Positions 10,530 to 38,815 of a stretch of DNA of 64,000 nt are shown here, piece by piece. The position numbers and the translations under genes are program-made. The stretch is from Nitrospira sp. ND1 (GTDB lineage Bacteria > Nitrospirota > Nitrospiria > Nitrospirales > Nitrospiraceae). Positions within the stretch are counted from its first letter, which is position 1, and every line of letters starts with the position of its first letter. Location of the stretch: assembly GCF_900170025.1 (NCBI RefSeq), contig NZ_FWEX01000006.1, forward strand, positions 962,795 through 1,026,794, written 5' to 3'. The notes beneath the pieces are model-generated. The model was not told the origin of the DNA. It saw nothing but the letters and a program-made list of their open reading frames with translations, and made no database searches.

Positions 10530-10531
10530 AC

Positions 10532-11126: not shown

Positions 11127-11140
11127 GATGAATTCCTCAT

Positions 11141-11158
11141 TGACTAACTGATTAGTCA
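11141..11158. promoter_or_regulatory. palindromic operator between DUF433 and rep genes
   Basis: TGACTAA, four bases, TTAGTCA: a perfect 7-bp inverted repeat in the 54-bp divergent gap. On the minus strand a TTGACA lies at 11192-11187 and a weak TAGCCT at 11169-11164 with a 17-bp spacer, so the palindrome sits at the transcription start of the DUF433 gene. Binding there could also block the divergent rep promoter. Candidate ligand: the DUF433 protein. Confidence 0.5.
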
Positions 11159-11180
11159 GCCTAAGGCTAGGAGGTTCCGC

Positions 11181-12152
11181 GTGTCCTGTCAAGATAAGCC
11201 ACTCGATTCAAACAGCAGGAACCCAAAGCCGGACGCCCGTGCGCGGGGTGGCGCAAGCCACCCGCGCAGGGGAGCCGCGCCAGCGGCCACTCCTAAACTT
11301 GACAGGAGGACATTTCTCGGCGAACACACCTGGCCTCACATCACACTACCTCCCGCAGGGAACGTCTGGTCCATCACGATTCATGATTTCGGAAAACAAT
11401 GGGTCGAAATGTCTTGGGGAAGGTTAGACCCGATTCAAGGCAAGAGAGGAGAGAAAGGCGCATCGCGGAATAGAAAGATGAACGAGGCTCGGGCACGAGG
11501 CCGGGCCAAAAGCACGATTCGGAAGAAATGCTTGACCATCGGAGCCGACCATCTCGTGACCTTGACCTATCGAGCGAATATGGAGGATCGAGACCGGGTG
11601 TTACACGATCTAGAGCGGCTACGGCGTGCGCTATCGCGATCGGGCTGCTCTATGCCCTATGTGGCGGTCCTGGAACGGCAACAGCGTGGGGCGCTACATC
11701 CTCATCTCGCAGTGAAGGGGTTTCAGGATGTTCGGCTCTTACGACGATGCTGGTACAAGATCGTCGGGAACGGCCAGGGGCAAGTCAATGTCAGAGGCCC
11801 TCGTCCGGGAAGTTCACCCGTCAAGCTCGCCCGCTACCTATCAAAATATATCAGCAAGGATTTTGACAACATGCCGCGTGAGTTTGAGGAGCACCGATAC
11901 TTTTGTTCACTAGGCGTGAAGGTGCCCACGGAAAAGCATGAATTCGTCTTGGATCGAAGGGCAAAGGACGTTGAAAGGAAAATGTACAGCCTCATTCGGC
12001 AAGAGGCCTTGCGTCGTGTTGGGGTGTGTTGCCGTCTTACGGAATGGATGGGTGGATCGGGCACCTACGGCTGGATGGCCGGCTTTGAAGATGGTTCGAT
12101 ACGATGGGTAACTGGAAAGCCTGAAGCGGTGCCGAGTACTCAGAGTCCTTGA
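11181..12152 (+). CDS. HUH rolling-circle replication initiator
   Basis: 323 residues. The three motifs of an HUH endonuclease are readable in order: motif I LVTLTYRAN (about residue 120), motif II HPHLAVKG with the metal-binding His-x-His (about residue 172), and motif III LARYLSKYISK with two Tyr four residues apart (about residue 214). Two spaced Tyr are typical of Rep proteins of small phages and their relatives, which can cut and rejoin during rolling-circle copying. The GTG start at 11181 has CTAGGAGG six bases upstream. The first 45 residues are Arg/Pro/Ala-rich and contain a strong DNA hairpin (11241-11267). Replication of the excised element is the likely role; mobilisation is an alternative. 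Confidence 0.8.
   Translation: MSCQDKPLDSNSRNPKPDARARGGASHPRRGAAPAATPKLDRRTFLGEHTWPHITLPPAGNVWSITIHDFGKQWVEMSWGRLDPIQGKRGEKGASRNRKMNEARARGRAKSTIRKKCLTIGADHLVTLTYRANMEDRDRVLHDLERLRRALSRSGCSMPYVAVLERQQRGALHPHLAVKGFQDVRLLRRCWYKIVGNGQGQVNVRGPRPGSSPVKLARYLSKYISKDFDNMPREFEEHRYFCSLGVKVPTEKHEFVLDRRAKDVERKMYSLIRQEALRRVGVCCRLTEWMGGSGTYGWMAGFEDGSIRWVTGKPEAVPSTQSP
11241..11267. repeat. GC-rich hairpin inside rep 5' region
   Basis: GCGCGGGGTGGC, loop GCAA, GCCACCCGCGC: an 11-bp stem with a single bulged G and a GNRA-type tetraloop. It lies in the poorly conserved N-terminal part of the rep gene. HUH initiators recognise hairpins next to their nick site and often have the origin inside or just beside their own gene, so this is one of two origin candidates in the element. 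Confidence 0.5.
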
Positions 12153-12200
12153 CTTACAGCGCCGGCGCTCGGTGTGGCGCGGGCGCTCTTTGGGGGGGAT

Positions 12201-12221
12201 GGGGGTGTCGAAGACTCCCCC
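12201..12221. other. hairpin downstream of rep, origin or terminator candidate
   Basis: GGGGGTGTC, GAA, GACTCCCCC: stem of nine positions with one mismatch and a three-base loop, 48 bp after the rep stop codon. A 12-bp palindrome (AGCGCCGGCGCT, 12158-12169) lies just before it. There is no T run, so it is a poor intrinsic terminator. It may be a bidirectional stop between convergent genes or the second candidate origin. Confidence 0.35.
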
Positions 12222-12342
12222 ATAATAGTCTGAAAAGCGCATATGTGACGGGCCTTCTCGCTGTTCTGACGGGCTGCAGACGATCCAAAGCGGACCTGTG
12301 CGGCTCAGACGTAATAAGAGGTGAACCTACAAACATTTACCT

Positions 12343-15300
12343 TCAAACCAGCCGCCGAATCCGCTCATGCAAGGTCAACGCCGCCGGGAGCTGCCGCGCT
12401 ACGGCGTGCGCCGAAAGGTCGAGTAGGGGCTGGCGCAAATTCTCCTTTTGCCGTAGCTCACCTGAATGTTCGGAGACGAGAAGGTCCAGGAATTCCATGA
12501 AAGCGCTCGATGTCGAGTCCTTGTGCCATTTCCCCATATTGCCGTTGGTCTTCATCGCATCGCCAATCCATTGCAACCCATCCATACGCAGGGGCTTTCC
12601 AACCTCGTGGGCAAGAAATCTACAGAACCACGCTAGATTTTCTTCATCACTCGTGAGCCGGTTTTGAGCCCAGATCGGAAACAGGTCCCGCATCATTCCT
12701 ACAAGTGCAGCGTGACCTGGAACTCGCTTTATATAGCCCAACGCGCCGAATCCTAGAACCTCGCGCTCCAGTCGCTCACCGTAATACCACGGCCCATCCT
12801 TGGACCACTCAGAATTCAGGATCATGAACTCGACCATTGGACGCCAGCGTTTGGCGAACTCCTCGACTACAGTAGCTTCCGTTAGCTGCCCGAACCAAGA
12901 GGACAGGAAATAACTAATCGCATAGTGCCCCTTAGATCCTAGCTCAAACACCGGATGCCAAAGCGACGGCGTTTCCGAAACTGGACTTTCAACAACTAGG
13001 CGCGCCAATTCCTGTAGAAGCGCATAGCCGAACTCGTGCATCGGCTGATAGTGGTCATCCTCATCCTTGCCGCTGCCCGATAACCACCATGCCTGATGAG
13101 ACCAGAATGCCGAGACCAGTTGCCGGTGCGTCTCCAACTCCTGGACCGGAATAACACGATCAGCTTGACTGGGAAACAGCCATGTAAATGCGCTCTTGAG
13201 AAAGGCCGTATCAAGACTGCCGGAGAGTCGCCGCCCCGGCTCAATGGTGACGGTGCGATCGCGGCGCGCGTAGCGTCGGCGCCATCGTCTGACTTCAAGC
13301 CGCTCGACCCGCTGCGCAATCGCCAACGGAGCAATCGAGGACAATGTCGCTACGACGGAGAGGCTGCGCGTCCGAAGCCAGCGATGCCATCTCTGCCAGC
13401 GAGCCTTTGTGCCTTCTTTGTCGCCATACCGTGCAACGAGCATCGAGAGGCCTGACCACAACAGCGCCATAAAGAGAAGTCGCCACCAGCGCTGACCAAG
13501 CGCATCACGGTTCTGGTAGGCCGACCAAACCAACACACGCACTGCTGACGAATCCTCGCTCGTAAGCAGCCGCAATAGCCGTTCGTCGCTCTCCTGTCCT
13601 GGATCAGTAAGCCAGCGCTCAGCAGCATAGTAAGCAGCAAATTCTAAATGACTCGGTGCCGACTGAATTCGTAGCCGGTGCCCTCCATCACTATCGACAA
13701 TCTCGTCAATGGCACCATCAATGATCGACTGCGCCCTCCGCTCGGTAGCCGCGTTCTGAGCCAGCCAGTCGGAGGCACGCAAGAGAAGCAAGACTGCTGT
13801 GGCCACGCGTGGCGCATGCAACATATCTTCATCGAGATCGATCTCTTCGTCGCCGTCGAGAGCCCCCATGAGCGACGCAACGGATTCAGCGCTCTCGTTG
13901 CTAAGTGTACCCGTCTGATCGAGAGCGTCGCGGAATTGTTGAGGGAATGTCAGCGCCTGTATGGCCCGTGAGCTTTTTTGTCGGAAGGTCGCAATTGCCT
14001 CAGCGATGTCCGGCGGACAGGCGAACTCAGAAACTTGCTTTCCGGATGTAGGATCAAGCACAGATGAGTAATTCCTATAATCGAGCTCCGCCACCAGCGC
14101 TCGGAATTCCAACGCTTCCTTCTCAGACTTAGGCGAAACCCATTGGCGAGTCATTGCTGCAACAAAATCACCAACCTCCCTGTCAGCCATAATTATTTTT
14201 GGGACGATCGCCCGCAACGGCTGTCTTCGATATGGAGCCGAGAACCATCTCTTAGCCATCTCGAAGATGAACTCACCCCATCGAGCCCACGCCGTCGCAT
14301 CAAATCGATATGCATTGGCATTAACACGCCGTGAATCCCACCCATAGAAGTGCTGCACGCCAAGCAACGGCCGCAACGGGCCTTTGAGCAACTCCTTGCG
14401 ATATTTCCCAACGCTGACAAGAACACCCAGTACAGCAACTGAGGTCGTCGCTCGAAGCAAAGCTTCGATGCGCGGGACGATATCTATCCCCGCATCAATG
14501 AGGTCACATAGCCATTGTTCCAGCGCCGCAAGCGCACAATGGAGTTGACCGATGGAGTTGGAGTCTTCATCAGACCAGGAAAAGACCCAATGATTGCCTT
14601 CATACTCGCGCACTGTACCATCAGACAAACGAATTGAGAGCCTCGATGGATTGGACCCATTTCTCTTGCTGACCGCCTGCACCCATCGATCCGTACTGAA
14701 ATTGATGAGCTGATGCAGACGACCGAGCGCCGCCTCTGGTTTGATGCGGAGAAACGTGTAAAACGGACTCTTCCACGGGGCCGTCGGATAGCCTTCAGAA
14801 TCAAACTCGATGCCAAGTTCCCGACCAAGTCGTTGGTGAGAGCCATATTCTTCCTCGGGTTCACTTTCAATAATGCACCCAAGAAGCACTTCGCCCGCGA
14901 CCTCGGCATCAGCACGCATAAGCGCCTGAAAATCCGCCGATCGCAGCACGGTTTCGCGAAAAGCCCCCACGATGCGATCCCTAGGCCCAAGGGGCCAGGG
15001 TGGGAGTCTTCTACCGGAACCTATTAATCCCGATGACTCCCTGAGTTGTTGATGGCGTTTGCGATATTCAGAATCAGATGCGAGACGCTGCTTGTGTTTC
15101 GCTGCCTGCGCTGCGTGGTATGCTGTAACTTGTTCAACGATATCCGCCCGATACGGACGGCGTTGAGCCATCTCAAGTGCCCATTCCGATACGTCGGCGG
15201 TCAAGTCTGGAGCGCCCGCGAAAACAGCCTGATAAATGAGCTTCTCCCCTTGGTCAAAACCAAGATACACTACGCCTTTTGCGTGCCCGACCTGGATCTC

Positions 15301-25319: not shown

Positions 25320-25410
25320 AGATGACTGCACAATAGTTTCGTTATACCGAATCTCACAAAGACATAACAACCGACGCGATGCCGCGTTGACAGTCCTCCT
25401 GTGCTCGGCT

Positions 25411-26325
25411 ATGGTCCAGCGCGTGAACGCTGCGAGTCCTTCAACTCACCGCTCAACACCCGCATGGTCCTGGAGCGCGGTGGCCGACCTGATCCGACTG
25501 CGGAATCAATCCGGCACCTGGCTCTTACTGTTGCCCAGCCTGTGGTCGTTAGTCCTGGCAAATCAGGGCCGTCCACCGATGTGGCTGTTGGGCGTCTTTA
25601 CGTTGGGCGCCTTCGTGATGCGGAGTCTCGGCGTGGTCTTTAACGACCTGGCCGACCGCAATTTCGACAAACACGTCGCACGCACACGCACTCGACCGCT
25701 CGCCGCAGGCCGCCTTGCGCCCAGACAAGCGCTGCTCGTCGCACTTGGCCTGGCAGTGATCGCGGCCGCTCTGGTGATCACACTCAATCCCTTCACGATG
25801 CTACTGAGTCCTATCGCTCTCTTTCTGGCAGCGATCTATCCCTTCAGTAAGCGATGGATTCAGATTCCGCAAGGGGTGCTGGGCATTGCCTTCGGTTGGG
25901 GAGCCGTGATGGCATGGGCGGCCTCGCGCGGCTCGATCGAAGCGCCGGCGTGGTGGCTCTTTGCCGCGACGACCTGCTGGGCCATCGCGTACGACACAAT
26001 TTATGCGCTGCAGGACTGCGAGGATGATCGCCGCATCGGAGTGAAGTCGTCGGCACTTCTCTTCGGTGAGGCCGTCCCGGTCGCCGTCGGAGTTTTCCTT
26101 GTGGGGATGGTACTGTGCCTGGTAGTGGCCGGACAGTTGTCCGGCCTCGGGATGGGATATTATCTAATATTGGCCCTGCCGACCGGAGTCTTCCTCTGGC
26201 AGGTACGACGATTACAAGCGCCCGTCACTCCGCACATCGCCTTCGCCATGTTCAAACAGCATGTCTATTCCGGCGTGGCGATCCTCGTCGGTATCTGGAT
26301 CGGCACCTTTAATCAGACTCCCTAG
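25411..26325 (+). CDS. UbiA-family prenyltransferase
   Basis: 304 residues with about eight membrane helices. The two Asp-rich motifs of the family are present: FNDLADRNFDKHVARTRTRP and YDTIYALQDCEDDRRIGVKS. They bind the Mg-diphosphate of a polyprenyl donor; members attach a prenyl tail to 4-hydroxybenzoate or a related aromatic ring in quinone synthesis. The gene ends 4 bp from the convergent respiratory operon. A TTGACA at 25387-25392 and TATGGT at 25410-25415 with a 17-bp spacer overlap the annotated ATG; if that promoter is real the true start is the GTG at 25423 and the mRNA is leaderless. The aromatic substrate is not certain. Confidence 0.88.
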   Translation: MVQRVNAASPSTHRSTPAWSWSAVADLIRLRNQSGTWLLLLPSLWSLVLANQGRPPMWLLGVFTLGAFVMRSLGVVFNDLADRNFDKHVARTRTRPLAAGRLAPRQALLVALGLAVIAAALVITLNPFTMLLSPIALFLAAIYPFSKRWIQIPQGVLGIAFGWGAVMAWAASRGSIEAPAWWLFAATTCWAIAYDTIYALQDCEDDRRIGVKSSALLFGEAVPVAVGVFLVGMVLCLVVAGQLSGLGMGYYLILALPTGVFLWQVRRLQAPVTPHIAFAMFKQHVYSGVAILVGIWIGTFNQTP

Positions 26326-26329
26326 CCGG

Positions 26330-27349
26330 CTATTCGCCCACCTTCCCGAGTGGCTGGTCAGGCTTCGGAGCGCGGAGGGTTTTCAGATAGAGAGCCACAG
26401 CCTTTGCATCCGCATCGTTCAATCCCAAGCTGGGCATACGCGTATCAGGCTTCATGGCTTGCGGGTTGCGCAGCCATCGGTAGACCCAGGTGGGATTCAG
26501 ACGGTATCCGGCACGATCCAGCGCAGGCCCGACCTTTCCACCCTCGTCGCCGATCTTGTGGCATCCATTGCACCCATACTTGGTCACATAAATCTGCTTG
26601 CCGACTTCCACCAGTTTCGCGGCGGCATCCGGCTTCATATTCAGATCGGGACGCGCAATGTTTACGCCCTTGCCGGGCCTGGTCGTAAAATTCGCCAGTG
26701 CGGCCGTGGCCTGGTCGAGTTCCTTTTTGGCCTGCCCCATTGCCTGCATTTCTTTGGCATAGGCGTTATCGTCGACTTCAACACCCTTCTTGTCGGCTTC
26801 GTCGCTGGCTTTCTTCTCCGCTTCCTGAGCCACCCGTTCCGCTTCCTTAAATTTCTGATCGGCTGCCTGCTGGGCGGCTTGAAGGTCTTTCTTTCGACCT
26901 TCAACATTGAACTCTAATTTCTTTCCATGCAACGAGCGCACATATCCGACGATGCCCCAGATCTCTTCCTCTGACAGCGTGTACTTGAAGGTCGGCATGG
27001 TCGGAACGGCAAATTCATCATCACCGATCTTTTCCCCGCCTGGTCCTGTGTCCTTCATATCGCGGGAAATGGTGTTAAAGATTTCCTCATCCTTAAAGGT
27101 GCCCATTTCGTCTTTATTGGAAAGGTCTTTGGGCTTCGGGTCCGTCATGGACGACCAATTGAACCCTTCGTTCTGTCTGCCATTTTCACCGTGGCAATGC
27201 ATGCAATAGTGAGCATAGAGCTTCTTGCCCTTCGCGGATTGTTCGTTCTGAAACATCGAACAACCCCCGGCTCCAATGAGGCCCGAGAGTCCCACCACCA
27301 CTGCGACCGCTCCAAATACGCGTATTCTTCGCCACGCCCTCATGCTCAC
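26330..27349 (-). CDS. dihaem cytochrome c lipoprotein
   Basis: 339 residues, last gene of the respiratory operon. An N-terminal signal with a lipobox-like LIGAGGC precedes a first haem c site (YCMHCHGENG) and a second one near the C-terminus (KYGCNGCHKIGDEG). Between them is a long, charged coiled-coil region rich in Ala, Lys and Glu (about 150-215) that separates the two haem domains. Methionines after each site (for example MPTFKYTLSEEE and MPSLGLNDAD) are likely sixth ligands. The start overlaps the stop of the gamma-like subunit gene by 4 bp. It probably carries electrons in the periplasm to or from the membrane complex. Confidence 0.88.
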   Translation of the reverse strand: MSMRAWRRIRVFGAVAVVVGLSGLIGAGGCSMFQNEQSAKGKKLYAHYCMHCHGENGRQNEGFNWSSMTDPKPKDLSNKDEMGTFKDEEIFNTISRDMKDTGPGGEKIGDDEFAVPTMPTFKYTLSEEEIWGIVGYVRSLHGKKLEFNVEGRKKDLQAAQQAADQKFKEAERVAQEAEKKASDEADKKGVEVDDNAYAKEMQAMGQAKKELDQATAALANFTTRPGKGVNIARPDLNMKPDAAAKLVEVGKQIYVTKYGCNGCHKIGDEGGKVGPALDRAGYRLNPTWVYRWLRNPQAMKPDTRMPSLGLNDADAKAVALYLKTLRAPKPDQPLGKVGE

Positions 27350-28173
27350 GACCCTTTCTTTAAACGTCTCACGAGGACCAACTCAAAGCCCAGCGCTAAG
27401 GCCACCGCGAGTAATGCATACATGTACGGCGAATAGTCCGGCGGCGCATCGGCCCGGAAATACCACCAGGACGAAATAGCTTTTTCAGAGCCCTTTTCCT
27501 TCGGCTGGCCGGTCTCCATCTTCTTGCCGTCCCAGACGGCGAAAGCGATGCTCGCGAATGTCCCTGGCTTGAACTGGGTATCTTCGGCCACATGCTCCGT
27601 GCTTAACGGACGCGAGAAAACCACTTTCCAGACGCCACCCTGGTAGACACCTTTGGCTTTGACATCCTGGTGGGCATGAGGCTTCAGCGTTCCGAACCCT
27701 TTTGCACCAAGGTCTGCGCCCTTGCCGTCCTTGTTCTTCCAATACCAGATATTGACCGGGCCGCCCTCCACCTGAGCCATGGGCTGGCCGTGGGCGAAAT
27801 GGGCCTTGGTATCGCCGACCATGAACTCCAAGGCTGCTGCGTCCTCCGGGTCTTCAGACGGATCCGAATACTCCAGAAGAATCGCCACCGTGGTCCCGTC
27901 ATGAAGTCCGCGAACCTTGACGCTCTTGGCCGTGACGTCGGTAATACGAACCGGCCAATGCACCTGAGGAGACATTGGGAATTCCGATACCGCCGCCGTG
28001 GCCCAGGCCGCTGCCGTCGGATCATCTGCCGGAAGGGATCCTTTCACGAGCGCGGCGCGCACCGACACGCTCTGCTGGCTATAGGCCGGCTGCACCTCGG
28101 CGGCCACGCACAGCCCCAGAAGGCCGACGGCTCCAACCCACCATCTGTTTCCTACGCTCCTCACTCGTGCCAT
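27346..28173 (-). CDS. ethylbenzene dehydrogenase-gamma-like haem protein (NxrC-like)
   Basis: 275 residues: signal peptide to about residue 32, then a beta-rich domain of the type II DMSO-reductase gamma family (ITDVTAKSVKVRGLHDGTTVAILLEYSD, then DLGAKGFGTLKPHAH and VYQGGVWKVVFSRPLSTEH), and a C-terminal membrane helix (YMYALLAVALALGFELVLV). In known enzymes of this family the subunit binds haem b and passes electrons from the molybdenum subunits; in Nitrospira, related proteins are proposed as the third subunit of nitrite oxidoreductase. No molybdenum or iron-sulfur subunit is nearby, so here it is more likely an electron carrier within the bc/bd assembly. Confidence 0.78.
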   Translation of the reverse strand: MARVRSVGNRWWVGAVGLLGLCVAAEVQPAYSQQSVSVRAALVKGSLPADDPTAAAWATAAVSEFPMSPQVHWPVRITDVTAKSVKVRGLHDGTTVAILLEYSDPSEDPEDAAALEFMVGDTKAHFAHGQPMAQVEGGPVNIWYWKNKDGKGADLGAKGFGTLKPHAHQDVKAKGVYQGGVWKVVFSRPLSTEHVAEDTQFKPGTFASIAFAVWDGKKMETGQPKEKGSEKAISSWWYFRADAPPDYSPYMYALLAVALALGFELVLVRRLKKGS

Positions 28174-28213
28174 ACGCTCCCCTTAATTGCTCAGCAATCT
28201 CTGATCGGAGGAA

Positions 28214-28945
28214 TTACTCGGACTCATCCCACGTTCTTGGTTTCTGTCCGGCCCCGTCATATTCGCCCATAATAACTTTCCAGATATCCTCATCGGACAT
28301 TTCCAGTTCCCATCGCGGCATAGCCGTCTTCCATGGCATCCCTTCGACAGGAAGGCCTACGCCTCCCTTCTTGATCCGCCAGAAGAGATAGCTTTCCTGC
28401 AGCATGGCGATCGTCGTCGGATCCTTAAAGTTAGCCGGCGGTGGCGTGAATCCCGCCGCAGCGAAACCCTTACCATCGAAGTTGCCGTGGCATGGCGAGC
28501 AACGCGAGGCGTAGAGCCCCTTGCCATAATTAATATTGTCCAGCGTCTTCGGAACGGGATTGGAAAGACCGGTATACTCACCGGGAGGAGCGGGATGAAT
28601 CGTGCGATTTTCACCCGGTGGTGCATCACTGGAGGCCGTGCTCCCGTAGGCCTGCCATCCGACGAGCAAGGGGAATAAGGCCAACACGAGATACCGTGCT
28701 CCACTCAGGGCCCCACCACCTTCTCCAGTGAGAAAGCGCAGGATCGGTCCAAAAAATGCGTCTTTTGATGCCCCGCTGAGCGTAGCAAAAATGACAATCC
28801 CGGCCGTCGTCAGCATCAGGTACAGGAAAATCAAGCTTGAGGGCAGCGGCGCGGAATGCGGCAGATTCGGGACAATAAACTTTAAGAACAGATAAATACA
28901 GACCGTCAGAATAATCGGTCGAACGAGTACGCCTCCCATAACCAC
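28214..28945 (-). CDS. membrane-anchored monohaem cytochrome c
   Basis: 243 residues. Three membrane helices occupy the first half (VRPIILTVCIYLFLKFIV, LIFLYLMLTTAGIVIFATL, YLVLALFPLLVGWQAYGS). A periplasmic haem c domain follows with CxxCH in ASRCSPCHGNFDGKGFA and a later Met in LPVEGMPWKTAMPRW as possible sixth ligand. It is encoded 40 bp upstream of the gamma-like subunit gene and 21 bp downstream of another cytochrome gene, all in one operon. The helix arrangement differs from cytochrome c1, which has a single C-terminal anchor. Confidence 0.85.
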   Translation of the reverse strand: MVMGGVLVRPIILTVCIYLFLKFIVPNLPHSAPLPSSLIFLYLMLTTAGIVIFATLSGASKDAFFGPILRFLTGEGGGALSGARYLVLALFPLLVGWQAYGSTASSDAPPGENRTIHPAPPGEYTGLSNPVPKTLDNINYGKGLYASRCSPCHGNFDGKGFAAAGFTPPPANFKDPTTIAMLQESYLFWRIKKGGVGLPVEGMPWKTAMPRWELEMSDEDIWKVIMGEYDGAGQKPRTWDESE

Positions 28946-28966
28946 CCTCCTCTACTTCACCGACGA

Positions 28967-29587
28967 CTATCGAGCCTGTGCCACCGCCAGCGCCCCGGCA
29001 TCAGCCGCTTTGACCGGCGCCGGTGTTGCCCGCGGCAAATCCAATTCCGTCGGACTCACGCTGATCGGCTCACCGCTCATCTGTTGCAGGAATGCAATGA
29101 CCGACAGAATTTCGTTCTTGGACAGGCCGATTGGATTCTTGTTGATATACGGCATCCGGGCCGGATACTCCTTCGGAACTCCCTCGTGTCGGTAGTCCAG
29201 ATAAAGATACGCTTGCGGCTCGGTCAGACTCTCAAAAATAAACTCGCGGGACAGCTTGGCCCCGATTCCCTTCAGATCCGGACAGCGTGCCGATTCGCTC
29301 GGGCCGATAGAATGGCAGAGCGCACACTGGCCCTTGCTGAAGAAGATCTTCTGCCCGATCGTCGCCATGTCCGTCGGCGTCTTGATATCGGCGATGTTGA
29401 TGCTTTCTTCAGCAGGCGGCAATGAGGCCATCTGGGGAACGGCCAGAGCGACCAATGAAAACAGTCCTAGCACGATCGCCACGAAACCAATGACCCGAAT
29501 GAATTGCCCCTTGATGAACAGGAGGATCACGGTTCCGAGTCCGACGACACAGAGACCGATTAACTGCAGTTTGACTACTTCACTCAT
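28967..29587 (-). CDS. membrane-anchored monohaem cytochrome c
   Basis: 206 residues. Two N-terminal helices (LQLIGLCVVGLGTVILLFIK and VIGFVAIVLGLFSLVALAVP) anchor a haem c domain with CxxCH in KGQCALCHSIGPSESARCP; Met in YPARMPYINKNPIGLS is a likely axial ligand. The extra Cys in SARCPD four residues on is unusual. The C-terminal 30 residues are Ala/Pro-rich. It follows the second CydA-like gene in the operon. Confidence 0.85.
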   Translation of the reverse strand: MSEVVKLQLIGLCVVGLGTVILLFIKGQFIRVIGFVAIVLGLFSLVALAVPQMASLPPAEESINIADIKTPTDMATIGQKIFFSKGQCALCHSIGPSESARCPDLKGIGAKLSREFIFESLTEPQAYLYLDYRHEGVPKEYPARMPYINKNPIGLSKNEILSVIAFLQQMSGEPISVSPTELDLPRATPAPVKAADAGALAVAQAR

Positions 29588-29653
29588 AAGTCCTCAACAA
29601 AGGATAATGATCACGACCCACCCCTGGTAACCAGGGGAAGATCATCTTCCCGA

Positions 29654-31534
29654 TCAGACCGGACGTTTTTCCTCAGAAGCATCGGCCTCAGGCCCATCCA
29701 GCGCCGGCGACCCGCCGGCCATCGCGGGTATGGCTCCTGGCTCGACCGAACCTTTGGTACTGGCAGCGGCCTTGGCCTTGTCTCCCATCGTGGCAACCCA
29801 GAAAATAAAAGCCACCAACATACAGAACAAGAACGTGTTCAGCGCCATCAGCGCGGCCGCATAACCAAGCGCGGGAGAAAACGCGTACTGGGAGGAATCG
29901 CGCATCACACCGTAGATGTGCCAGTGAACGCGGGATGAAGAACGCGCATAGCCCATGAGGGTCATGAGCAGGATGACCATGACCGCGTTCAATACCAGCG
30001 CATAGCCGGCGCGTGGTGGCATTCTTCCCCACACCATTTCGGTGGTGGTCTTGGCGCTCTTGAGAAGGAGCGCAGTGAGCGGAGTAATCGTCAACATCAC
30101 AAAGATGACGATACCCACCTGGGACGTAGAGAAGTAATTGATACGGATAATAGCGGGAACGAAATAACCCCAGACACCGAGCACGATGACTGCTATGGCT
30201 GCCAACCCGAGCACACCTCCCATCAGAGCCTTGGCGGCCTTGGCCCATCCTGCGGTGTCTTGCTTACCGGCACGCCAATACATAATGAAGCTCATGAATG
30301 TGACGAGCACCATGAGATTGGAAACGGTCATTTTGGCCGACATGACGCCGAATACGCCCAACAAAGGATGGTGCGTGCCGCCCATCTTTTGGGCCTCTTC
30401 CAAGCTGGCAACGAGGGAGTGCGGGGTCATCCACACACCGAGGCAGAGCAGAAGAATGATCAACATCGCCATAATCGGTTTGCGATATTGCGTTTCCGAC
30501 CCCGGAATTCGATGGGTGATTCCGAGCCAGAAGTAGTAGTTGGAGCCCAGGAAGAGCACACCGATCAACATGGCCTGCAGAATGAACAACCAGGAGAGGA
30601 ATCCGCCCATGAGCGTGATACCCATCTGCTGGTTGTACTGATAAATTTCCCGCATCAGCCAGTACCCGGCGAATGGAAGAGGCAAGAGTCCGAACACGCC
30701 GATAAAGTTCCCGACGTATCCCATCCAATCGTAGTGATAGCGCTCTTCCTGGCTCTTGGCCGACAGATACCGGATGCCGGCGTACGCGCCACAAATATAA
30801 CCACCGAGCACCACGTTGGCGATCAAGCGGTGAATGTTGACCGGCCACCAGGTCGGATTCCACGTCGCCGCCCACGCCCGCGCGAAATCGCTGCCCTCCG
30901 AGATCACCACTGGACTGGACTGGAACGTCGCCCACGAGTTGGGCACGATCATGATAAAGAACGCGAACACGTTGAGGAGAAATCCCAGGAAAATGTGAAA
31001 CTTCTTCCCGCTACCCTCGGCCATGGCGTCCCACCCGTACCAGTACAGGTACAGCGTGGCCGTTTCCACAAGGAAGAGACCGCAATAGACGAGAAAGGAT
31101 GGGAAAAAGATATCCGTGAGATAAGCCATCAACTTCGGATAGAAGCCGATGAGCAGGAACAACAGGATACCGCCGAACAGTGCCGTCGTGGCGTATGAAG
31201 ACGTCAAGAGCTTGGTAAACTCTTTGGCCAGCTTGTCATAACGCTTATCGCCTGATTTCCAGCCGACGATTTCGCACAACCAGGCAAAGATCGGCACGCC
31301 AAGCACGAAGCCGGCGAGGAGCAAATGGAGCTGGGCGATAATCCAGACAAGGTTTCGACTGCCGATATACGGAATATCTCGATACGCGGTCGGAGCCTGC
31401 GGGGCAGCTTCCTGAGCAAGGGCCGCATCCGGCATTCCCACCCATGCCAGCAGTGCCGCACATCCGGCCAACAGGGCCACACGGCCTGCGATTTGGCTCC
31501 CGTGATTGGTGACGATCTGACCCCGGTTCATCAT
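29654..31534 (-). CDS. CydA-like cytochrome bd oxidase subunit I homologue, copy 2
   Basis: 626 residues from the ATG at 31534, which has GAGGTGA eight bases upstream and gives a signal peptide ending in AALAQEA; longer frames lack such a site. About 13 membrane helices. CydA-like features: NLVWIIAQLHLLLAGFVLGV with the haem-binding His, and NIHRLIANVVLGGYICGAYA with a second His. The quinol-binding GRQPW loop of classic CydA is not seen; the corresponding place reads GVWMTPHSLV. No CydB is encoded. A C-terminal tail of about 40 residues is polar. It is a paralogue of the gene at 35510. Whether it reduces oxygen is open. Confidence 0.8.
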   Translation of the reverse strand: MMNRGQIVTNHGSQIAGRVALLAGCAALLAWVGMPDAALAQEAAPQAPTAYRDIPYIGSRNLVWIIAQLHLLLAGFVLGVPIFAWLCEIVGWKSGDKRYDKLAKEFTKLLTSSYATTALFGGILLFLLIGFYPKLMAYLTDIFFPSFLVYCGLFLVETATLYLYWYGWDAMAEGSGKKFHIFLGFLLNVFAFFIMIVPNSWATFQSSPVVISEGSDFARAWAATWNPTWWPVNIHRLIANVVLGGYICGAYAGIRYLSAKSQEERYHYDWMGYVGNFIGVFGLLPLPFAGYWLMREIYQYNQQMGITLMGGFLSWLFILQAMLIGVLFLGSNYYFWLGITHRIPGSETQYRKPIMAMLIILLLCLGVWMTPHSLVASLEEAQKMGGTHHPLLGVFGVMSAKMTVSNLMVLVTFMSFIMYWRAGKQDTAGWAKAAKALMGGVLGLAAIAVIVLGVWGYFVPAIIRINYFSTSQVGIVIFVMLTITPLTALLLKSAKTTTEMVWGRMPPRAGYALVLNAVMVILLMTLMGYARSSSRVHWHIYGVMRDSSQYAFSPALGYAAALMALNTFLFCMLVAFIFWVATMGDKAKAAASTKGSVEPGAIPAMAGGSPALDGPEADASEEKRPV

Positions 31535-31562
31535 TGTTCTCACCTCGTCATTCGCCATGATG

Positions 31563-32585
31563 TCATTTGCCGCTTCCCGCCGGTTTCCCAGCTGCTGATT
31601 GCGAAGGCTTGCCGTCGCTCTTGGGAGAGCCATCCTTGGCACCGGCTTTGTCCTTGCCGCCCTTCTGCTTGTCTTTTTCGTCTTCTGCCGTTCGCTGTTC
31701 GATCGCGGCAATCTTCAGCTCTGCGTCCTTGAACGCCTTCTCTCCCTTAGAGAGGGACTTTTGAGCATCAAAGGGCGGAGCAGCCTCCACAGTGGCAGGT
31801 TTACAACATTCGTGCGGATGGGGAGTCGACACCGGAAGCACGGCCCAGAATAGGAGACTCAATACTGCGCCCGCGGCGGTGAAGGCGGTCAACATCAAGC
31901 TCTGATCGGCGGGCACCCGGATCATATCCCAACGCGATATGAGATCTTGATAGGTGTCTCCCGCTGGTTGGGCACCGGCAGCACGACCTTCAACCAGTTT
32001 CCCAAGAATCGACAGGCCGACAAAGGTCAGCGCCAGAAGCACGACGAATGCCGCACTGCCCCAGGCCGTGAATTCCAGACCGATTCGCTCAGCGACCGGC
32101 ATAGCCTTGAGCATATCCATATCCAAAATGGATTTCGTAATTGAACGGGCGAGATCGGTCGCGCCGCCCTGTACCACCCACAAGAAGGGAAGGTAGATCG
32201 CCCCGGCGACCGCAAATCGAACCCACAGCCCAATGCCCAGTGAGTCGGGGGGCTCGAGCCGCAAGCGCTCCAAAAACACGGTACGGGCGACCAAGCCCAA
32301 GGACCAAATGTCGATTGGAATGGAGAGCAGGAACAATAAGGGAAGCCCGATCCCTTCCCCGAAATGGAACCCGACACCTAGGGAGATCACGAAGAATGCA
32401 AAGACGCTGACCGGAGTCATGAGCAACATCAGGAATGTAATCCCGAGTTTCGTCTCCAGATGGATCGTCCCCATCGCCATAAACAACATGGCAAACGCCA
32501 TCTTGATCGGCAGGGCGGTCCAGCAGGCCGGCCAGAGAATGCTAAGCCCTAATTTAAATGACGACATCGTCTCTCGACCAGTCAT
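31563..32585 (-). CDS. membrane protein of unknown function in the respiratory operon
   Basis: 340 residues. About six membrane helices (for example AMLFMAMGTIHLETKLGI, FLMLLMTPVSVFAFFVISLG, AAFVVLLALTFVGLSILGKL), a Cys pair in PHECCKPATVEA on the probable outer side, then a Lys/Ala/Gly-rich C-terminal tail (KDKQKGGKDKAGAKDG) of about 60 residues. GGAGGGG upstream of the ATG at 32585 supports the start; ATG at 32567 is possible. No family recognised. Its place between cytochrome b and the CydA-like gene suggests a structural or assembly subunit. Confidence 0.65.
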   Translation of the reverse strand: MTGRETMSSFKLGLSILWPACWTALPIKMAFAMLFMAMGTIHLETKLGITFLMLLMTPVSVFAFFVISLGVGFHFGEGIGLPLLFLLSIPIDIWSLGLVARTVFLERLRLEPPDSLGIGLWVRFAVAGAIYLPFLWVVQGGATDLARSITKSILDMDMLKAMPVAERIGLEFTAWGSAAFVVLLALTFVGLSILGKLVEGRAAGAQPAGDTYQDLISRWDMIRVPADQSLMLTAFTAAGAVLSLLFWAVLPVSTPHPHECCKPATVEAAPPFDAQKSLSKGEKAFKDAELKIAAIEQRTAEDEKDKQKGGKDKAGAKDGSPKSDGKPSQSAAGKPAGSGK

Positions 32586-32603
32586 GTGCCCAAACCCCTC
32601 CGC

Positions 32604-33719
32604 CTATTCGAGAAATTCGCGGTTGATGATTGCCGCCACGGTGAAAATCAGAATGCTCGCCATGACCACAATCCATCCGATCAAGGCGATCGGTCGCTTG
32701 AAGATATTGCGTTCCGGGCTGCGATCGATGAACGGCAATGCCGCGAGCAACGCCATGAACGCGCCCGGCAAGGCAATGGCGCCGAGGAACTGCCCGAACT
32801 CTCCGGCAAACACCTTCAGACGCAGCAGTTGGAACAAGAAGAGGAAGTACCATTCCGGTTCCGGGTGGTAATCTCCGGGATCCGGCGTGGCCTCTTCGAG
32901 GAGCACAATCGGCTCCCAGAACGCGAGGCTACAGATACACAGGAAGACCGCGACCATCCCAACAATGTCTTTCCAGATTTGACGGGGAAAGAAATAGTCG
33001 GTCTTGGCCTTAATTTCTTCCACGCTGCCCCGGAAGGGTCCGGCAGGGCCAGCCTTACGGAACAGGAACAGATGCAGTCCCGCGAGCCCCATCAAGGCCG
33101 CCGGAAGAACCATGACGTGAATGACGAAGAAGCGACTCAGCGTCATCTGGCCTGGCGTCGCGCCGCCCTTCAGGAAGCGCGCCATGAAGTCGCCGAGAAG
33201 CGGCGTCTTGTCCATGATCTCAACACCGACCGTCGTGGCCCAGTAGGCCCGTTGATCCCACGGCAGTAGATAGCCGGTAAAGCCGAATCCCATGACAATG
33301 CCGAAGAGGGCCAAACCGACCAACCAGATGAGTTCGCGCGGTTTCTTGTAGGCGCCCCAGAGAAAGACTTGGGACATATGGGCGAACACGCACACGACCA
33401 TCGCCGTGGATCCCCAAAAGTGATAGCTCAACAAGAACCAGCCGTAATCCACCGAGTGGATGATGTATTGGGTGCTCGCATAGGCATGGTCGGCCGTCGG
33501 CACGTAATAGAACATCAACAAAATGCCAGTAACCGCCTGCATGATGAAAATAAAGAGCAGGACGGAGCCAAATACATACGCCCATCGCGACCCGCCTGGG
33601 ACGGGCTCGTTGAGCATTTTGGCTTGCAGAGTCTTCAGCCCGACGCGTTCGTCGACAAAGGCGAAGACTTTTTCAATGGCTGAGGGCTGAGTGGTCGTCG
33701 GCTGCGTAGTCGTATCCAT
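32604..33719 (-). CDS. cytochrome b of a bc-type complex
   Basis: 371 residues, eight or so membrane helices. Haem b ligands are visible as His pairs on two helices: SYHFWGSTAMVVCVFAHM, and FFVIHVMVLPAALMG with GLHLFLF. The Qo-site signature PEWY is present in HPEPEWYFLFLFQLLR. N- and C-terminal parts are in one polypeptide, as in cytochrome b of the bc1 type rather than split b6 and subunit IV. The start abuts the Rieske stop codon with no gap. Quinol oxidation at Qo and quinone reduction at Qi are the known functions. Confidence 0.93.
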   Translation of the reverse strand: MDTTTQPTTTQPSAIEKVFAFVDERVGLKTLQAKMLNEPVPGGSRWAYVFGSVLLFIFIMQAVTGILLMFYYVPTADHAYASTQYIIHSVDYGWFLLSYHFWGSTAMVVCVFAHMSQVFLWGAYKKPRELIWLVGLALFGIVMGFGFTGYLLPWDQRAYWATTVGVEIMDKTPLLGDFMARFLKGGATPGQMTLSRFFVIHVMVLPAALMGLAGLHLFLFRKAGPAGPFRGSVEEIKAKTDYFFPRQIWKDIVGMVAVFLCICSLAFWEPIVLLEEATPDPGDYHPEPEWYFLFLFQLLRLKVFAGEFGQFLGAIALPGAFMALLAALPFIDRSPERNIFKRPIALIGWIVVMASILIFTVAAIINREFLE

Positions 33720-34658
33720 TTAGACAATCCGAACCTGGGCCTTGGTGCCCGCCTTGAATTCCATATCGATAATGGTGATGTCGCCCGCTGCAGTAACCTT
33801 AATCGGGAGCGGATCCAACGCACGCGGAGCCGGCCCATCAAGGACCTTTCCGGCTGCGTCATAGATGCTCAAGTGACAAGGGCACAGAAAGACCTGGCCG
33901 AGCGCCTTATGCGTTCGCCACTTGAAACCGCACCCCAGGTGAGGACACTTGCCGGAATACGCGATGTAGGGCACGTCTTTCTTGTTGGTCCAGATGACCT
34001 TTCCGGCCGCGTCGTGAAACTCCATGTCTTTACCCTGATAAATCGTCTCCAGCACCTTTGGAGTCGCCTTCAAGACCCAGACGTTTTTGTCGATTTCCTG
34101 CTCCGGCATGTAGGCTTCTTTAATTTTTCTTTTGAACTTGAACTGCACGCCGACGTCATCCTGCTTGATCTTTCCGGAGTTGCCGATCTTGAGCCATTGA
34201 TTGTCGAAGGGGGAATACATCGGCTTCATCAGGTATCGCAGCACGGGAAATGCGATCGGCAAACCGATGAGAAATCCGATGGCGTGAGTGAAATTCATGA
34301 AGAAGGTCCGCCGCTTGACGCTGCGCTCAAGCTCCGGGAAGGGAACCAGCACTTCACCCGGAGTGACATGGATGCGCTCCTCCAGGTGAGCAATTTCCAC
34401 CTCATGAGTGGTCACATACTCGTCACGCTTAAACGCCGGAAGTGCCGTGTACTCTGCCGAGGTGCCACGGAGCGTCACGACCTCTTCGGCGACTCCTTGC
34501 ACCTGCCCCATAGGGACCTGGCGCTCGACCGAATCCGCTGCGCCGGCGCCGACCACGATATGGCTAATCTCGTGGGAGAGCGGGTCCATAATGACCCTGC
34601 GCACCTCCCCGACTTCACCGTCCGTACATCGAACTTTGGATTTCAGTTTCGGCTGCAT
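33720..34658 (-). CDS. Rieske iron-sulfur protein with N-terminal PRC-barrel-like domain
   Basis: 312 residues from the ATG at 34658, preceded by GAAGTGAG and starting five bases after the previous stop. Residues about 3-90 resemble a PRC-barrel (LKSKVRCTDGEVGEVRRVIM, SHEISHIVVGAG). A membrane helix follows (FTHAIGFLIGLPIAFPVLRYL), then the Rieske domain with ligands CPHLGC and, 19 residues later, CPCHLS, where Cys and His bind the 2Fe-2S cluster. The last 40 residues complete the Rieske beta fold. Ordinary Rieske proteins begin directly with a short tail and the helix, so the N-terminal domain is an addition. It passes electrons from quinol to cytochrome c. Confidence 0.9.
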   Translation of the reverse strand: MQPKLKSKVRCTDGEVGEVRRVIMDPLSHEISHIVVGAGAADSVERQVPMGQVQGVAEEVVTLRGTSAEYTALPAFKRDEYVTTHEVEIAHLEERIHVTPGEVLVPFPELERSVKRRTFFMNFTHAIGFLIGLPIAFPVLRYLMKPMYSPFDNQWLKIGNSGKIKQDDVGVQFKFKRKIKEAYMPEQEIDKNVWVLKATPKVLETIYQGKDMEFHDAAGKVIWTNKKDVPYIAYSGKCPHLGCGFKWRTHKALGQVFLCPCHLSIYDAAGKVLDGPAPRALDPLPIKVTAAGDITIIDMEFKAGTKAQVRIV

Positions 34659-34663
34659 GATGC

Positions 34664-35470
34664 TCACTTCATCTTGATGGGCTTCGGAGTATTGACCGAA
34701 GCATTCTTGTAACTGGCCAACCAACCCGCCAGCGCCTGCACATCCTTGGGCTCCATCAGGTCCTTGTACTTGTCGGGCATCTTCCCTTTTTCGTACTCCT
34801 TCTCGAAGCCTTCGGCCTTATAGCTCTTCGGGTCGAGAATCTTTATCGCGATTTCCTCAGCCGACAGGAGGTTGCCAATGTTGTCCAATTCCGGGCCACG
34901 CTTCTTACCGCCTTCGCCGTTCAGCTTGTGACAGTTGTAGCACTCCTGAAGTTGCCATTGCTCCTCACCGAGCTTGGCGATATCACCACCCGCAGCGGCT
35001 GTCGTCGCCGTCGGTGCAGCCTCTCCACCGGCCTTTTGATCCGCCGGAGCCTGCGCAGCACCCAACGCCTGCAAACGCGCCGTCAGTTCTTTGGCCTTTT
35101 CATCGAGCGCCTTGGCGCGCTGCAACAGAACCTCGACTTTGCCGGCCTCGTAATGTTCTCGCTTCGGCTTCAAGATCTTGTCGATCTTGCCTTTTTCGTC
35201 TTCCGGATCAAACTGCGGCCATACAGCGCCACCTGCAATATAGGCGACCGATAGAATGGCGTAGAATACGACGAGGGCTCCCGCAGCTTTTCCCCCGCTG
35301 ATCGGCTTGAGCGGAGGGAGGTCGAGAATAATAAAGACGACGGCGCCGAGCATGGCATAGCCAAAAAACAGCACCTGGAACACAAACGGAAATCCCAGTG
35401 CGTTGGTGGCTCCGAACAGAATTCCGCCGATCACGATTCCAACTAGCGACTTCTTAATCACGTTTCCCAT
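34664..35470 (-). CDS. membrane-anchored cytochrome c with coiled coil
   Basis: 268 residues. Three helices at the N-terminus (GIVIGGILFGATNALGFPFV, LFFGYAMLGAVVFIILDL, GALVVFYAILSVAYIAGG), a charged coiled-coil region of about 60 residues (VLLQRAKALDEKAKELTARL), an Ala-rich linker, then a haem c domain with CxxCH in LQECYNCHKLNGEGG and Met in KGKMPDKYKDLM. Its position before the Rieske gene suggests the role of cytochrome c1, but the fold is anchored by the other end. Confidence 0.87.
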   Translation of the reverse strand: MGNVIKKSLVGIVIGGILFGATNALGFPFVFQVLFFGYAMLGAVVFIILDLPPLKPISGGKAAGALVVFYAILSVAYIAGGAVWPQFDPEDEKGKIDKILKPKREHYEAGKVEVLLQRAKALDEKAKELTARLQALGAAQAPADQKAGGEAAPTATTAAAGGDIAKLGEEQWQLQECYNCHKLNGEGGKKRGPELDNIGNLLSAEEIAIKILDPKSYKAEGFEKEYEKGKMPDKYKDLMEPKDVQALAGWLASYKNASVNTPKPIKMK

Positions 35471-35509
35471 GAGTACCCTCGTTTATCGCCCTTCGAGTAT
35501 TGTGAGCGC

Positions 35510-37213
35510 TTACTTAGCACCGGCCGGCACAGGGCTCCCCTCGTGCGCATGGCCCTTCGAATCCGAGGGGCGCAATGTCACGATGATGGCAAAGCTGACC
35601 ACGGCAAAAAAGGTCACGGTAATGCCTGTAATCCACCAGGCCGAGTAAGACAGCGTTGGCGTGAAGGACTCGGCGGTAAAATCAGGCAGCAGGTTGTAGG
35701 CGTGAAAATACTTCCGCAACAACGATCGTACGGCACCCATCAGCCCCATGGTCCAAATGGCGCTGAAGGCCAGGAAGACCAAAACGAACTGTGAGGCGAA
35801 ATCGATCTTACCCCACACAATGGTCCCCTGCGAAACCGCACGGTTGTAGATGACATAGTTCACCACCGTCACGAAGATCAAGGTGAACGCGGCGGAGTTT
35901 TTCGCCGGCATCAGTGCAAGGAAATTCCAGTCGGATGGCAATTCCAACTCCGCAACCAACTTGGCCCCAGTGGGCACAAAACCGTGCGGCGTCATCCAGA
36001 TCGCATTTCCCACGACTACCATCAAGAAGCCGACCTTGATGACCGTGCTGGACGATACTGTCAGAGGTATAAATCGCCCCAGAATAACGGGCGCCAACAG
36101 GAGCGGCACGAGGAACGCCAGCGATGTCGCATCAGGCACTGGATAGTCGGTCAGGACCTTGGTCATGACGATCGGCAGCAACACCATCACGATCGGCGCG
36201 ATCACGGTCATACGGACCCGCTCCACCCCCTCGATCCGCTTCATGCTCAACCAGATATAGTAATTGCTGGCCAAGAAAATCAGGCCCACCATGGCGCCCT
36301 GCATTTCGAAGAACATCGAGAGCTGGTCGGCCATCATGTACGGACAAATTGAGGCGTCGTAGTCGCAGAGCTCATAGGACAGCAAATAACCCATAAACGG
36401 CAAGAACAAGAGCGCGCCGACACCGATCATGTTGCCGACAAACCCCATCCAATCGTAGTAGGCCCGCTCTTCTTCCTTCTTCGAGCCCATGAACATGTAG
36501 GCGGCAATCAGGCCGGCGATGAATCCGCCGAACGTCACGTTACCGACAAGCCTATGGAGATTAAGCGGCATCCAACTATAGTTGAACACCTTATCCCACA
36601 GGGAAGCGGTCGCCAGGAATTCCGCCGGCGAGACGCCCTCGGCCCTCACAGGGGTATTCATGAAGGAGGTCGGACCGTCGATCACGAACAGCGTGATCGA
36701 ACCGATGAGATTCAACAGCACGCCCAGTGCGATATGGCGCGCCTTCTTCTCACCCTTCCACGCATCCCACGTATAAAAATACATGTAGAGGATGATGGTC
36801 TCGCCGATAAACAACAGCGGATACACCACCGCAAATATCAGGAAGAAGTGATTGATGAGCCAGGTCGTGAACTGTGGATAGGTTGCGAGCAACACGAAGA
36901 TAAAGAGACCGCCCGTTAATGCCGTCATGCTGTAGAGAATGACCGTGACCTTGGTGACCTCTTTCGCCAGCCGGTCATAGCGTGGATCCTGCTTGCGATA
37001 CCCCAACCATTCCGAGATGACGACGAAAATCGGGGCCCCCAGAATGAATCCCGCAAAGAGAATGTGGAGCTGAGCGACGATCCATACCGCCGTGCGATTC
37101 CCGGTATAAGGGAACTCCACGGGGGGCGCACTGGGAGCCTGGGCGTATGCCACACCTCCCAATATCGCCACTAGCGCGAACATAACCAACAAACAGCGCT
37201 GCCAGATTTTCAT
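35510..37213 (-). CDS. CydA-like cytochrome bd oxidase subunit I homologue, copy 1
   Basis: 567 residues with a signal peptide ending in GVAYAQAP and about 13 helices. It is a paralogue of the gene at 29654: VWIVAQLHILFAGFILGAPI and LNLHRLVGNVTFGGFIAGLI carry the conserved His residues, and the loop IWMTPHGFVPTG stands where classic CydA has GRQPW. YYDWMGFVGNMIGVGALLFL is almost the same in both copies. No CydB partner is present. A double Cys (LCDYDASICP) in one loop is found only in this copy. Possible roles are quinol oxidation, oxygen reduction, or a structural haem b subunit. Confidence 0.8.
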   Translation of the reverse strand: MKIWQRCLLVMFALVAILGGVAYAQAPSAPPVEFPYTGNRTAVWIVAQLHILFAGFILGAPIFVVISEWLGYRKQDPRYDRLAKEVTKVTVILYSMTALTGGLFIFVLLATYPQFTTWLINHFFLIFAVVYPLLFIGETIILYMYFYTWDAWKGEKKARHIALGVLLNLIGSITLFVIDGPTSFMNTPVRAEGVSPAEFLATASLWDKVFNYSWMPLNLHRLVGNVTFGGFIAGLIAAYMFMGSKKEEERAYYDWMGFVGNMIGVGALLFLPFMGYLLSYELCDYDASICPYMMADQLSMFFEMQGAMVGLIFLASNYYIWLSMKRIEGVERVRMTVIAPIVMVLLPIVMTKVLTDYPVPDATSLAFLVPLLLAPVILGRFIPLTVSSSTVIKVGFLMVVVGNAIWMTPHGFVPTGAKLVAELELPSDWNFLALMPAKNSAAFTLIFVTVVNYVIYNRAVSQGTIVWGKIDFASQFVLVFLAFSAIWTMGLMGAVRSLLRKYFHAYNLLPDFTAESFTPTLSYSAWWITGITVTFFAVVSFAIIVTLRPSDSKGHAHEGSPVPAGAK

Positions 37214-37278
37214 GATGTCTCGCCGCTCCTCCTCATTCCAACCGATTGACCCATGACTCGAACCGAACCCGGCGTGAG

Positions 37279-37782
37279 TTACTTCACCTGATCAGCAGGT
37301 ACCCAATCCTTCTTGTTGGCATCCCAGCCCTTACCCGCCAAACCGAAGGAACGTTCAAACGCCAAAATCTTCCAACGATCCTCTTCGGACAACTTGCTCT
37401 TCCAGGGCTTCATCTTGGTGTTGGGAACGCCCTCAGAAATACGCCAGAACCAAACCGAGTCAGAATACAACTTCATGCGATCGCCATTGCGGAAGTCCCG
37501 GGCGCCCGCCTTGACCGGCTTGCCGTCCTTACCATGGCAACTGGCGCAATTGACGTCGGGGTTCTTGCCGCCGATGTACAACTCCTTACCTTCTTCGATA
37601 ATTTTCGGATCCGTCCACCAACCGGCAGGCATATGCTTGTCGGCATACTCCGCGGGAGCGGGTGGCGGCGGAACTACGGGGCCTTCGCCTCCCCCTTCAC
37701 CACCGCCGCAGGCGGCGACGCCAAAACCGAACCCAAGAATGCCGACCATCAGAGCCAATCTCTTCATGCCTGCTTGTTTCAT
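37279..37782 (-). CDS. cytochrome c lipoprotein, first gene of the respiratory operon
   Basis: 167 residues from the ATG at 37782, with AGGAGCGG upstream; longer frames read through the terminator of the previous gene. A lipobox (GFGVAAC) is followed by a Gly/Pro linker and a haem c domain with CxxCH in VNCASCHGKDGKPVKAG and Met in TKMKPWKSKLSEEDR. It is 65 bp ahead of the first CydA-like gene. Likely a membrane-tethered electron carrier. Confidence 0.85.
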   Translation of the reverse strand: MKQAGMKRLALMVGILGFGFGVAACGGGEGGGEGPVVPPPPAPAEYADKHMPAGWWTDPKIIEEGKELYIGGKNPDVNCASCHGKDGKPVKAGARDFRNGDRMKLYSDSVWFWRISEGVPNTKMKPWKSKLSEEDRWKILAFERSFGLAGKGWDANKKDWVPADQVK

Positions 37783-37993: not shown

Positions 37994-38533
37994 CTATTTC
38001 TGCCGCTTCCCCTGTCCCTTCTTTCGCCGTTGCTCTTCTCGCATCCGCTTGCGGGAGATCTTTAGCCCAATCCATCCCACAATAGCAACAGCCGCGATCC
38101 CCAGCCCGTACAACAACCACTGCGGAGGACCAAGATCGCGCTCACACCCACTTCCGAAATCAACCCGAAGCTTACGTTCCGTCTCCAGATCGTTCGGGTC
38201 GAACTGGATTTTATAATTCTTTTGCTCCCCGCCGACTTCAACTAACAACGGGTCGCCCACATTATCATTGTGAAGATGCAGGGTGACTTTATAGTACCCG
38301 TCACCATCGGTCGTCACAGTCTGGCCGACCGTGATCCGCGTATCTTTTACCAGCACCTCAACATTGGCGCCGGGTCGACCGTCTTTGCCACACACAAAAC
38401 CTTCGACGGTAAATCGATGGTCGGCTGCGTGGCTCGCGAACAAGACCGACGGCACAAACAACGTCGAGATCAGGCCCCAAACGACAACGACGCGCCAGGC
38501 GGTTTTCCGACTAATTGCTCTCCGCCATCGCAT
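37994..38533 (-). CDS. periplasmic carboxypeptidase-regulatory-like domain protein with C-terminal anchor
   Basis: 179 residues from the ATG at 38533, chosen because a signal peptide follows (WRVVVVWGLISTLFVPSVLF). The mature part is a beta-sandwich with the pattern of carboxypeptidase regulatory or transthyretin-like domains: TVEGFVCGKDGRPGANVEVL, TTDGDGYYKVTLHLH. A membrane helix (WLLYGLGIAAVAIVGWIGLK) and a Lys/Arg-rich tail end the protein. Two Cys (FVCGKD and SGCERD) could pair. The frame is open to 38650, so a longer form cannot be excluded. Role unknown. Confidence 0.65.
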   Translation of the reverse strand: MRWRRAISRKTAWRVVVVWGLISTLFVPSVLFASHAADHRFTVEGFVCGKDGRPGANVEVLVKDTRITVGQTVTTDGDGYYKVTLHLHNDNVGDPLLVEVGGEQKNYKIQFDPNDLETERKLRVDFGSGCERDLGPPQWLLYGLGIAAVAIVGWIGLKISRKRMREEQRRKKGQGKRQK

Positions 38534-38815
38534 ACGTATGACCCGTGTCGGACTTGTTTTCGGCCTCACAAACATCCCGCCCACAGCCATGCTACGAGAG
38601 GCCTCATCGACACGGACACGACCCAAATTTGAGGCCGATTCTTCTAGCATAGCCCCCCCTCTTTGTCAACAAATGGATGGAGTTAAACGGAGGGAGCCAC
38701 GACGAAATGCGCGATGAAAATTGGGGACGCGTGAAGGGCAATTAAAGCCGCTGGCCAGAACGAGCCGGTACAAGAAAACGAACGACGGCCACTCGCGCGC
38801 CAGCAAGCTGACGGC

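Follow-up and report, generated by a model that had tools for sequence, protein, structure and literature searches.

A conserved Nitrospira operon that most likely encodes an unusual putative cytochrome c oxidase together with a quinone-linked bc complex

Members of the genus Nitrospira, widespread nitrite oxidisers, raise the question of which enzyme terminates their respiratory chain, since in most sampled genomes of the order no haem-copper oxidase exceeds the Pfam cut-off. What is encoded, in such an organism, by an operon in which the genes of a bc-type core stand between those of two CydA-like proteins? The operon lies in a window of 64,000 nucleotides, the whole stretch of DNA that we analysed, within the 4.45 Mb genome of Nitrospira sp. 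ND1 (completeness rating 100%). We take ND1 to oxidise nitrite because it is related to N. defluvii and N. moscoviensis and because molybdoenzyme genes of the type II DMSO reductase kind, about 1150 aa long, lie elsewhere in its genome. The operon as such is already known: it is a strictly conserved respiratory operon of Nitrospira, orthologous to a cluster described in N. moscoviensis. To this our analyses add gene fusions, residue counterparts, the separation into modules and the absent match to a haem-copper oxidase.

Layout and conservation of the operon

Between positions 26330 and 37782 of the window, eleven tightly packed ORFs lie on the minus strand, the first gene beginning at 37782 and the last ending at 26330, in the 5′ to 3′ order c1-A1-c2-Rieske-cytochrome b-MP340-A2-c3-c4-gamma-cc5. 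The eleven same-direction genes of an earlier sequence-only reading were thus borne out, and domain searches confirmed its parts list of a bc core, two CydA-like proteins, five cytochromes c and a gamma-like haem protein: with Pfam and NCBIfam, the eleven genes yielded cytochrome b, Rieske, two Cyt_bd_oxida_I, EB_dh (in gamma) and cytochrome c domains. With likely starts adopted for A2 (31558), Rieske (34658, MQPKLK) and c1 (37782, presumably at an internal methionine), the intergenic gaps measure about −4 to 66 bp. Four of the cytochromes are membrane-anchored monohaem proteins with one CXXCH each, namely c1 (37279–37782; Cytochrome_CBB3, 2.7e-8), c2 (34664–35470; PF00034, 6.4e-10), c3 (28967–29587; PF00034, 1.9e-7; motif CALCH) and c4 (28214–28945; PF13442, 1e-8). 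Together with the dihaem cytochrome cc5 (26330–27349; PF00034, 7e-20; two CXXCH) they account for six c haems. The gamma gene (27346–28173; PF09459, 5.3e-21; TIGR03477, 4.9e-30) encodes a haem b protein resembling the gamma subunit of type II DMSO reductases, with a C-terminal anchor.

On the plus strand, ubiA (4-hydroxybenzoate octaprenyltransferase, 25387–26325) converges on the operon and ends 4 bp past cc5, a position retained in most relatives. At the other end, a minus-strand gene (37994–38650), whose membrane-anchored product shows a carboxypeptidase-regulatory-like domain below threshold, is found upstream of c1 in many relatives as well. A promoter scan returned sites no more numerous than in shuffled sequences.

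Our survey of the phylum covered 245 genomes, 77 of them from Nitrospirales with the ND1 genome counted; many relatives are metagenome-assembled genomes (MAGs), for which absences weigh less than presences. A1 and A2 were each matched in all 77 Nitrospirales genomes, a few copies being cut by contig ends. The eleven-gene arrangement is not due to chance: each of the 28 Nitrospirales loci that we sampled keeps the order, one of them being cut by a contig end before cc5; the record L056 differs by a fusion of A2 with c3. Among the 80 named loci, 46 show the full order, including those of N. moscoviensis (L116) and Ca. N. defluvii (L156), the remainder being mostly truncated at contig ends or drawn from other lineages. 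In three loci from other families of the class the order is the same and MP340 is very divergent.

The N. moscoviensis cluster has been described as complex III copy 1 (CIII_1), bd-like_1, bd-like_2 and alt_nxrC_1, with two cytochromes c preceding alt_nxrC_1 and with bd-like_2 as the putative complex IV (PMC6606698, 2019). It was strongly transcribed on nitrite, canonical bd oxidases were weakly expressed, and a III–IV supercomplex was proposed (PMC6606698). The ND1 operon has the same components, and in our comparison no differences in content or order from the N. moscoviensis cluster were found, only sequence divergence. Judged by position, A1 corresponds to bd-like_1, A2 to bd-like_2, the putative oxidase, and gamma to alt_nxrC_1. 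A second cluster of the ND1 genome (L086:7178–18812) encodes two further A2-like proteins and cytochromes resembling c3 and c4, along with a 630-aa gamma-like protein; it matches the published bd-like_3/bd-like_4/alt_nxrC_2 locus.

The CydA-like proteins and the probable partners of A2

A1 (35510–37213, minus strand, 567 aa; PF01654, 8.3e-22) and A2 (29654–31558, minus strand, about 634 aa; PF01654, 7.6e-12) share with canonical CydAB the N-terminal Cyt_bd_oxida_I region. Their residues were assigned by aligning them, profile-based, with a canonical CydA of the same genome and counted over 107 A1 and 102 A2 homologues; the labels H19, H186, M393 and E445 follow the numbering of E. coli CydA. 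Counterparts of H19, H186 and M393 are invariant in the A1 homologues and kept in nearly all A2 homologues, H19 being replaced by Met in three. Unlike canonical CydAB, both proteins have extra helices and c-haem partners. Neither A1 nor A2 contains GRQPW, which both canonical CydA proteins of the genome have; the profile alignment puts RSxxRxx[W/F]HxY at its position, and the His of this motif is invariant (H504 in A1, H547 in A2). The E445 position holds Ser in nearly all rows and Glu in five A1 rows; the C-terminal part of this alignment is weak, although the Glu in some A1 rows supports its register. The loss of E445 counts against reading A2 as an oxidase. GRQPW adjoins E445, the ligand of haem b595, and is itself not the quinol (Q) loop. 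The sequence-only reading had rightly noted the lack of GRQPW and of CydB, which neither Pfam nor NCBIfam detected among the eleven genes, but had misnamed the motif. As a replacement for E445 we also considered the His of a WMTPH motif and dropped it, since it is not general in the family and is Arg in several relatives. Nitrospirales A1 also carries a hydrophobic insertion of about 60 residues at approximately residues 330–390, which A1 relatives of other lineages lack. The predicted structure of A2 had a mean pLDDT of 55 at an alignment depth of 18 similar sequences.

The eleventh gene, left uncharacterised in the sequence-only reading, is MP340 (31563–32585, minus strand). It encodes a helical membrane protein without any match in Pfam or NCBIfam, and its model (pLDDT 71) gave no fold match in the PDB at E ≤ 0.001; we dismissed 9r2g_D, which belongs to a bd oxidase entry, as noise (E 2.5, TM 0.18).

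Probable partners of A2 emerged from gene fusions. In seven loci, A2 is fused to a C-terminal c-haem domain with the CALCH motif of c3, and in the A2 tree these fused forms fall on at least three branches (L119, which is the same as the L056 record; L043–L047 with L041; and L149). In L149, a single frame of 1075 aa comprises MP340, A2 and c3 consecutively. Because the genes are fused in separate lineages and, for all three, in one MAG, A2, MP340 and c3 are probably subunits of one enzyme. Gene fusion is evidence for partnership, short of proof, and that the triple fusion occurs in one MAG only we also count against an A2 oxidase. In L119, the A2-c3 fusion (10509–12887) branches outside most other Nitrospirales A2 in an otherwise normal operon, whose A1 is 86% identical to that of the window. 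A divergent A2-c3 beside so similar an A1 therefore suggests that A2 and c3 were replaced in place as a unit.

Modules in other lineages and the possible pairing of A1 with A2

Outside Nitrospirales the operon comes apart into A1 with c1/c2, A2 with c3, c4 and gamma, and Rieske with cytochrome b. Scattering of the genes in related genomes would speak against a single assembly as the sequence-only reading had proposed it; they are never scattered within Nitrospirales, but are split into modules in other Nitrospirota and in other phyla. One obligatory assembly is hence not a general property, although the fixed order in Nitrospirales and the published supercomplex hypothesis (PMC6606698) are in its favour. 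Alternatively, the operon could be a merely co-regulated set of several separate enzymes (an A2 oxidase, a bc complex and an A1 unit) that form no supercomplex. We give this alternative a little less than an even chance, as the modules do occur apart and as the A2-c3 of L119, which comes from another branch, appears to be swappable as a unit within a conserved operon. The strictly fixed order, with bc genes between A1 and A2, exceeds what co-regulation needs and argues weakly the other way.

The modules bear also on a published proposal. A1 and A2 lack the canonical quinol motif and are associated with c-type cytochromes, as are the OR-N-type bd-like oxygen reductases, the NIDE0901-like CydA-like proteins of Nitrospirales (PMC12342949; PMC10839748); their putative assignment to OR-N rests on the NIDE0901-like orthology in PMC12342949. 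The OR-N1 and OR-N2 CydA of most Nitrospirales have been assigned to a CydAA′ terminal oxidase (PMC12342949; PMC10839748), and A1 (OR-N1) and A2 (OR-N2) might accordingly form one heterodimeric oxygen reductase of this type. The presence of both genes in every sampled Nitrospirales genome agrees with such a pair. In the present survey, however, the pairing looks optional. In several Nitrospirota, A2 is accompanied by c3, c4 and gamma without an adjacent A1, and the best A1 matches there do not exceed in strength the cross-match between A1 and A2. Conversely, in four genomes of other lineages, all MAGs that may be incomplete, A1 is the sole PF01654 match, and all four have haem-copper oxidases. 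Moreover, the fusions link A2 with MP340 and c3 and never with A1. A1-type genes that stand alone in other lineages thus argue against an obligatory pairing; within Nitrospirales, where the two always co-occur, we consider the heterodimer possible but doubtful. The TO_1 cluster of Ca. Manganitrophaceae, which is called well discussed in other Nitrospirota, likewise combines a bd-like protein with a periplasmic cytochrome b (PMC9040806), and we infer that it is the A2-c3-c4-gamma module without A1.

A1-type genes of other lineages were also seen next to molybdoenzyme genes. In a Caldilineae MAG (L138, 6600–12632), an A1-type gene, accompanied by one for a dihaem cytochrome c, comes directly after the genes for the small and large subunits of arsenite oxidase. 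Alpha and beta genes resembling type II DMSO reductases precede the same pair in L142 (5899–12650), as identified by family search, and in L137 (5985–12715), as judged by ORF pattern; in L103 an A1-type gene lies beside another molybdoenzyme.

The bc core and the proposed distribution of nitrite electrons

The unsplit cytochrome b (32604–33719, minus strand; PF00033, 7e-48; PF00032, 2.7e-9) has two bis-His haem sites, H100/H114 and H201/H216, that are conserved together with PEWY in 98 sequences, and the Rieske iron-sulphur protein (33720–34658, minus strand; PF00355, 2e-8) retains both cluster motifs, CPHLGC...CPCHLS, invariant in 16 orthologues. These features are common to the complex III family. 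The operon departs from it in that its Rieske protein has a PRC-barrel-like N-terminus, its genes lie among bd-like genes, and no certain cytochrome c1 is present. Published models place the bc core in reverse electron flow (PMC8407350).

PF00115, the catalytic subunit of haem-copper oxidases, had no match in the ND1 genome (G000), with positive controls, and is absent over the cut-off in 76 of 97 genomes of the order. On established energetics, a quinol oxidase cannot readily draw its electrons from nitrite; therefore one of the bd-like proteins is likely the cytochrome c oxidase. As a c haem is fused to A2 in relatives, A2 is a better candidate than A1. The quinone-level exchange suggested for the operon by the sequence-only reading has a firm footing only for cytochrome b and Rieske with their intact ligands and PEWY; A2 would rather oxidise cytochrome c with O2, given the c-haem fusions, the lack of GRQPW and the missing haem-copper match.

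A further alternative, close to that earlier reading, is that the bd-like proteins serve reverse electron flow by passing electrons from cytochrome c to quinone and are no oxidases. Against an A2 oxidase we also count that anaerobic anammox bacteria contain related bd-like proteins (PMC3578206), so that the fold does not imply O2 reduction. A quinone-reductase role has been suggested for the bd-like protein beside nitrite oxidoreductase (PMC3578206). The replaced E445 would fit such a role, as would the A1 relatives beside arsenite oxidase or DMSO-reductase-like genes in genomes already equipped with haem-copper oxidases. Yet the operon already has, in its intact Rieske-cytochrome b core, a candidate for this task, and the genome would then be left without a visible cytochrome c oxidase. 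We regard this role as unlikely for the two proteins together, and as more plausible for A1 than for A2.

Most likely, the electrons of nitrite are shared between two products of the operon, a quinone-linked bc complex and an unusual putative cytochrome c oxidase. In the version that we cautiously prefer, and to which we give somewhat better than an even chance, the operon is the electron hub of nitrite respiration in Nitrospirales, with A2-MP340-c3 as the oxidase and the bc core reducing quinone. Electrons at the potential of nitrite would pass from the periplasmic nitrite oxidoreductase to the haem b protein gamma and the c-type cytochromes. One branch would lead to A2, a member of the bd superfamily without the canonical quinol-oxidase motif, for O2 reduction, c3 acting as the electron-entry subunit and MP340 as the membrane partner. 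Along the other, Rieske and cytochrome b might work in reverse, supplying reduced quinone for the production of NADH and ferredoxin. A1, c1 and c2 may make up another bd-like unit that is linked to donors in the periplasm and acts as a second oxidase or as a cytochrome c-linked quinone reductase. We may further speculate that MP340 stands in for CydB, a fixed c haem for the quinol site and the invariant His for E445, and that this A2-MP340-c3 enzyme forms a supercomplex with the bc core, splitting nitrite electrons between O2 and quinone; this fuller proposal is tentative and, taken as a whole, rather improbable. For biochemical work, the fusions single out A2, MP340 and c3 as a concrete set of subunits for purification, and the conserved residues offer testable sites.

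Our literature search for a fusion of a PRC-barrel domain with a Rieske protein found no paper. The genome's second Rieske protein (L101) is short and has no PRC-barrel-like domain; at the N-terminus of the operon's Rieske, this domain was detected in 7 of the 16 orthologues.
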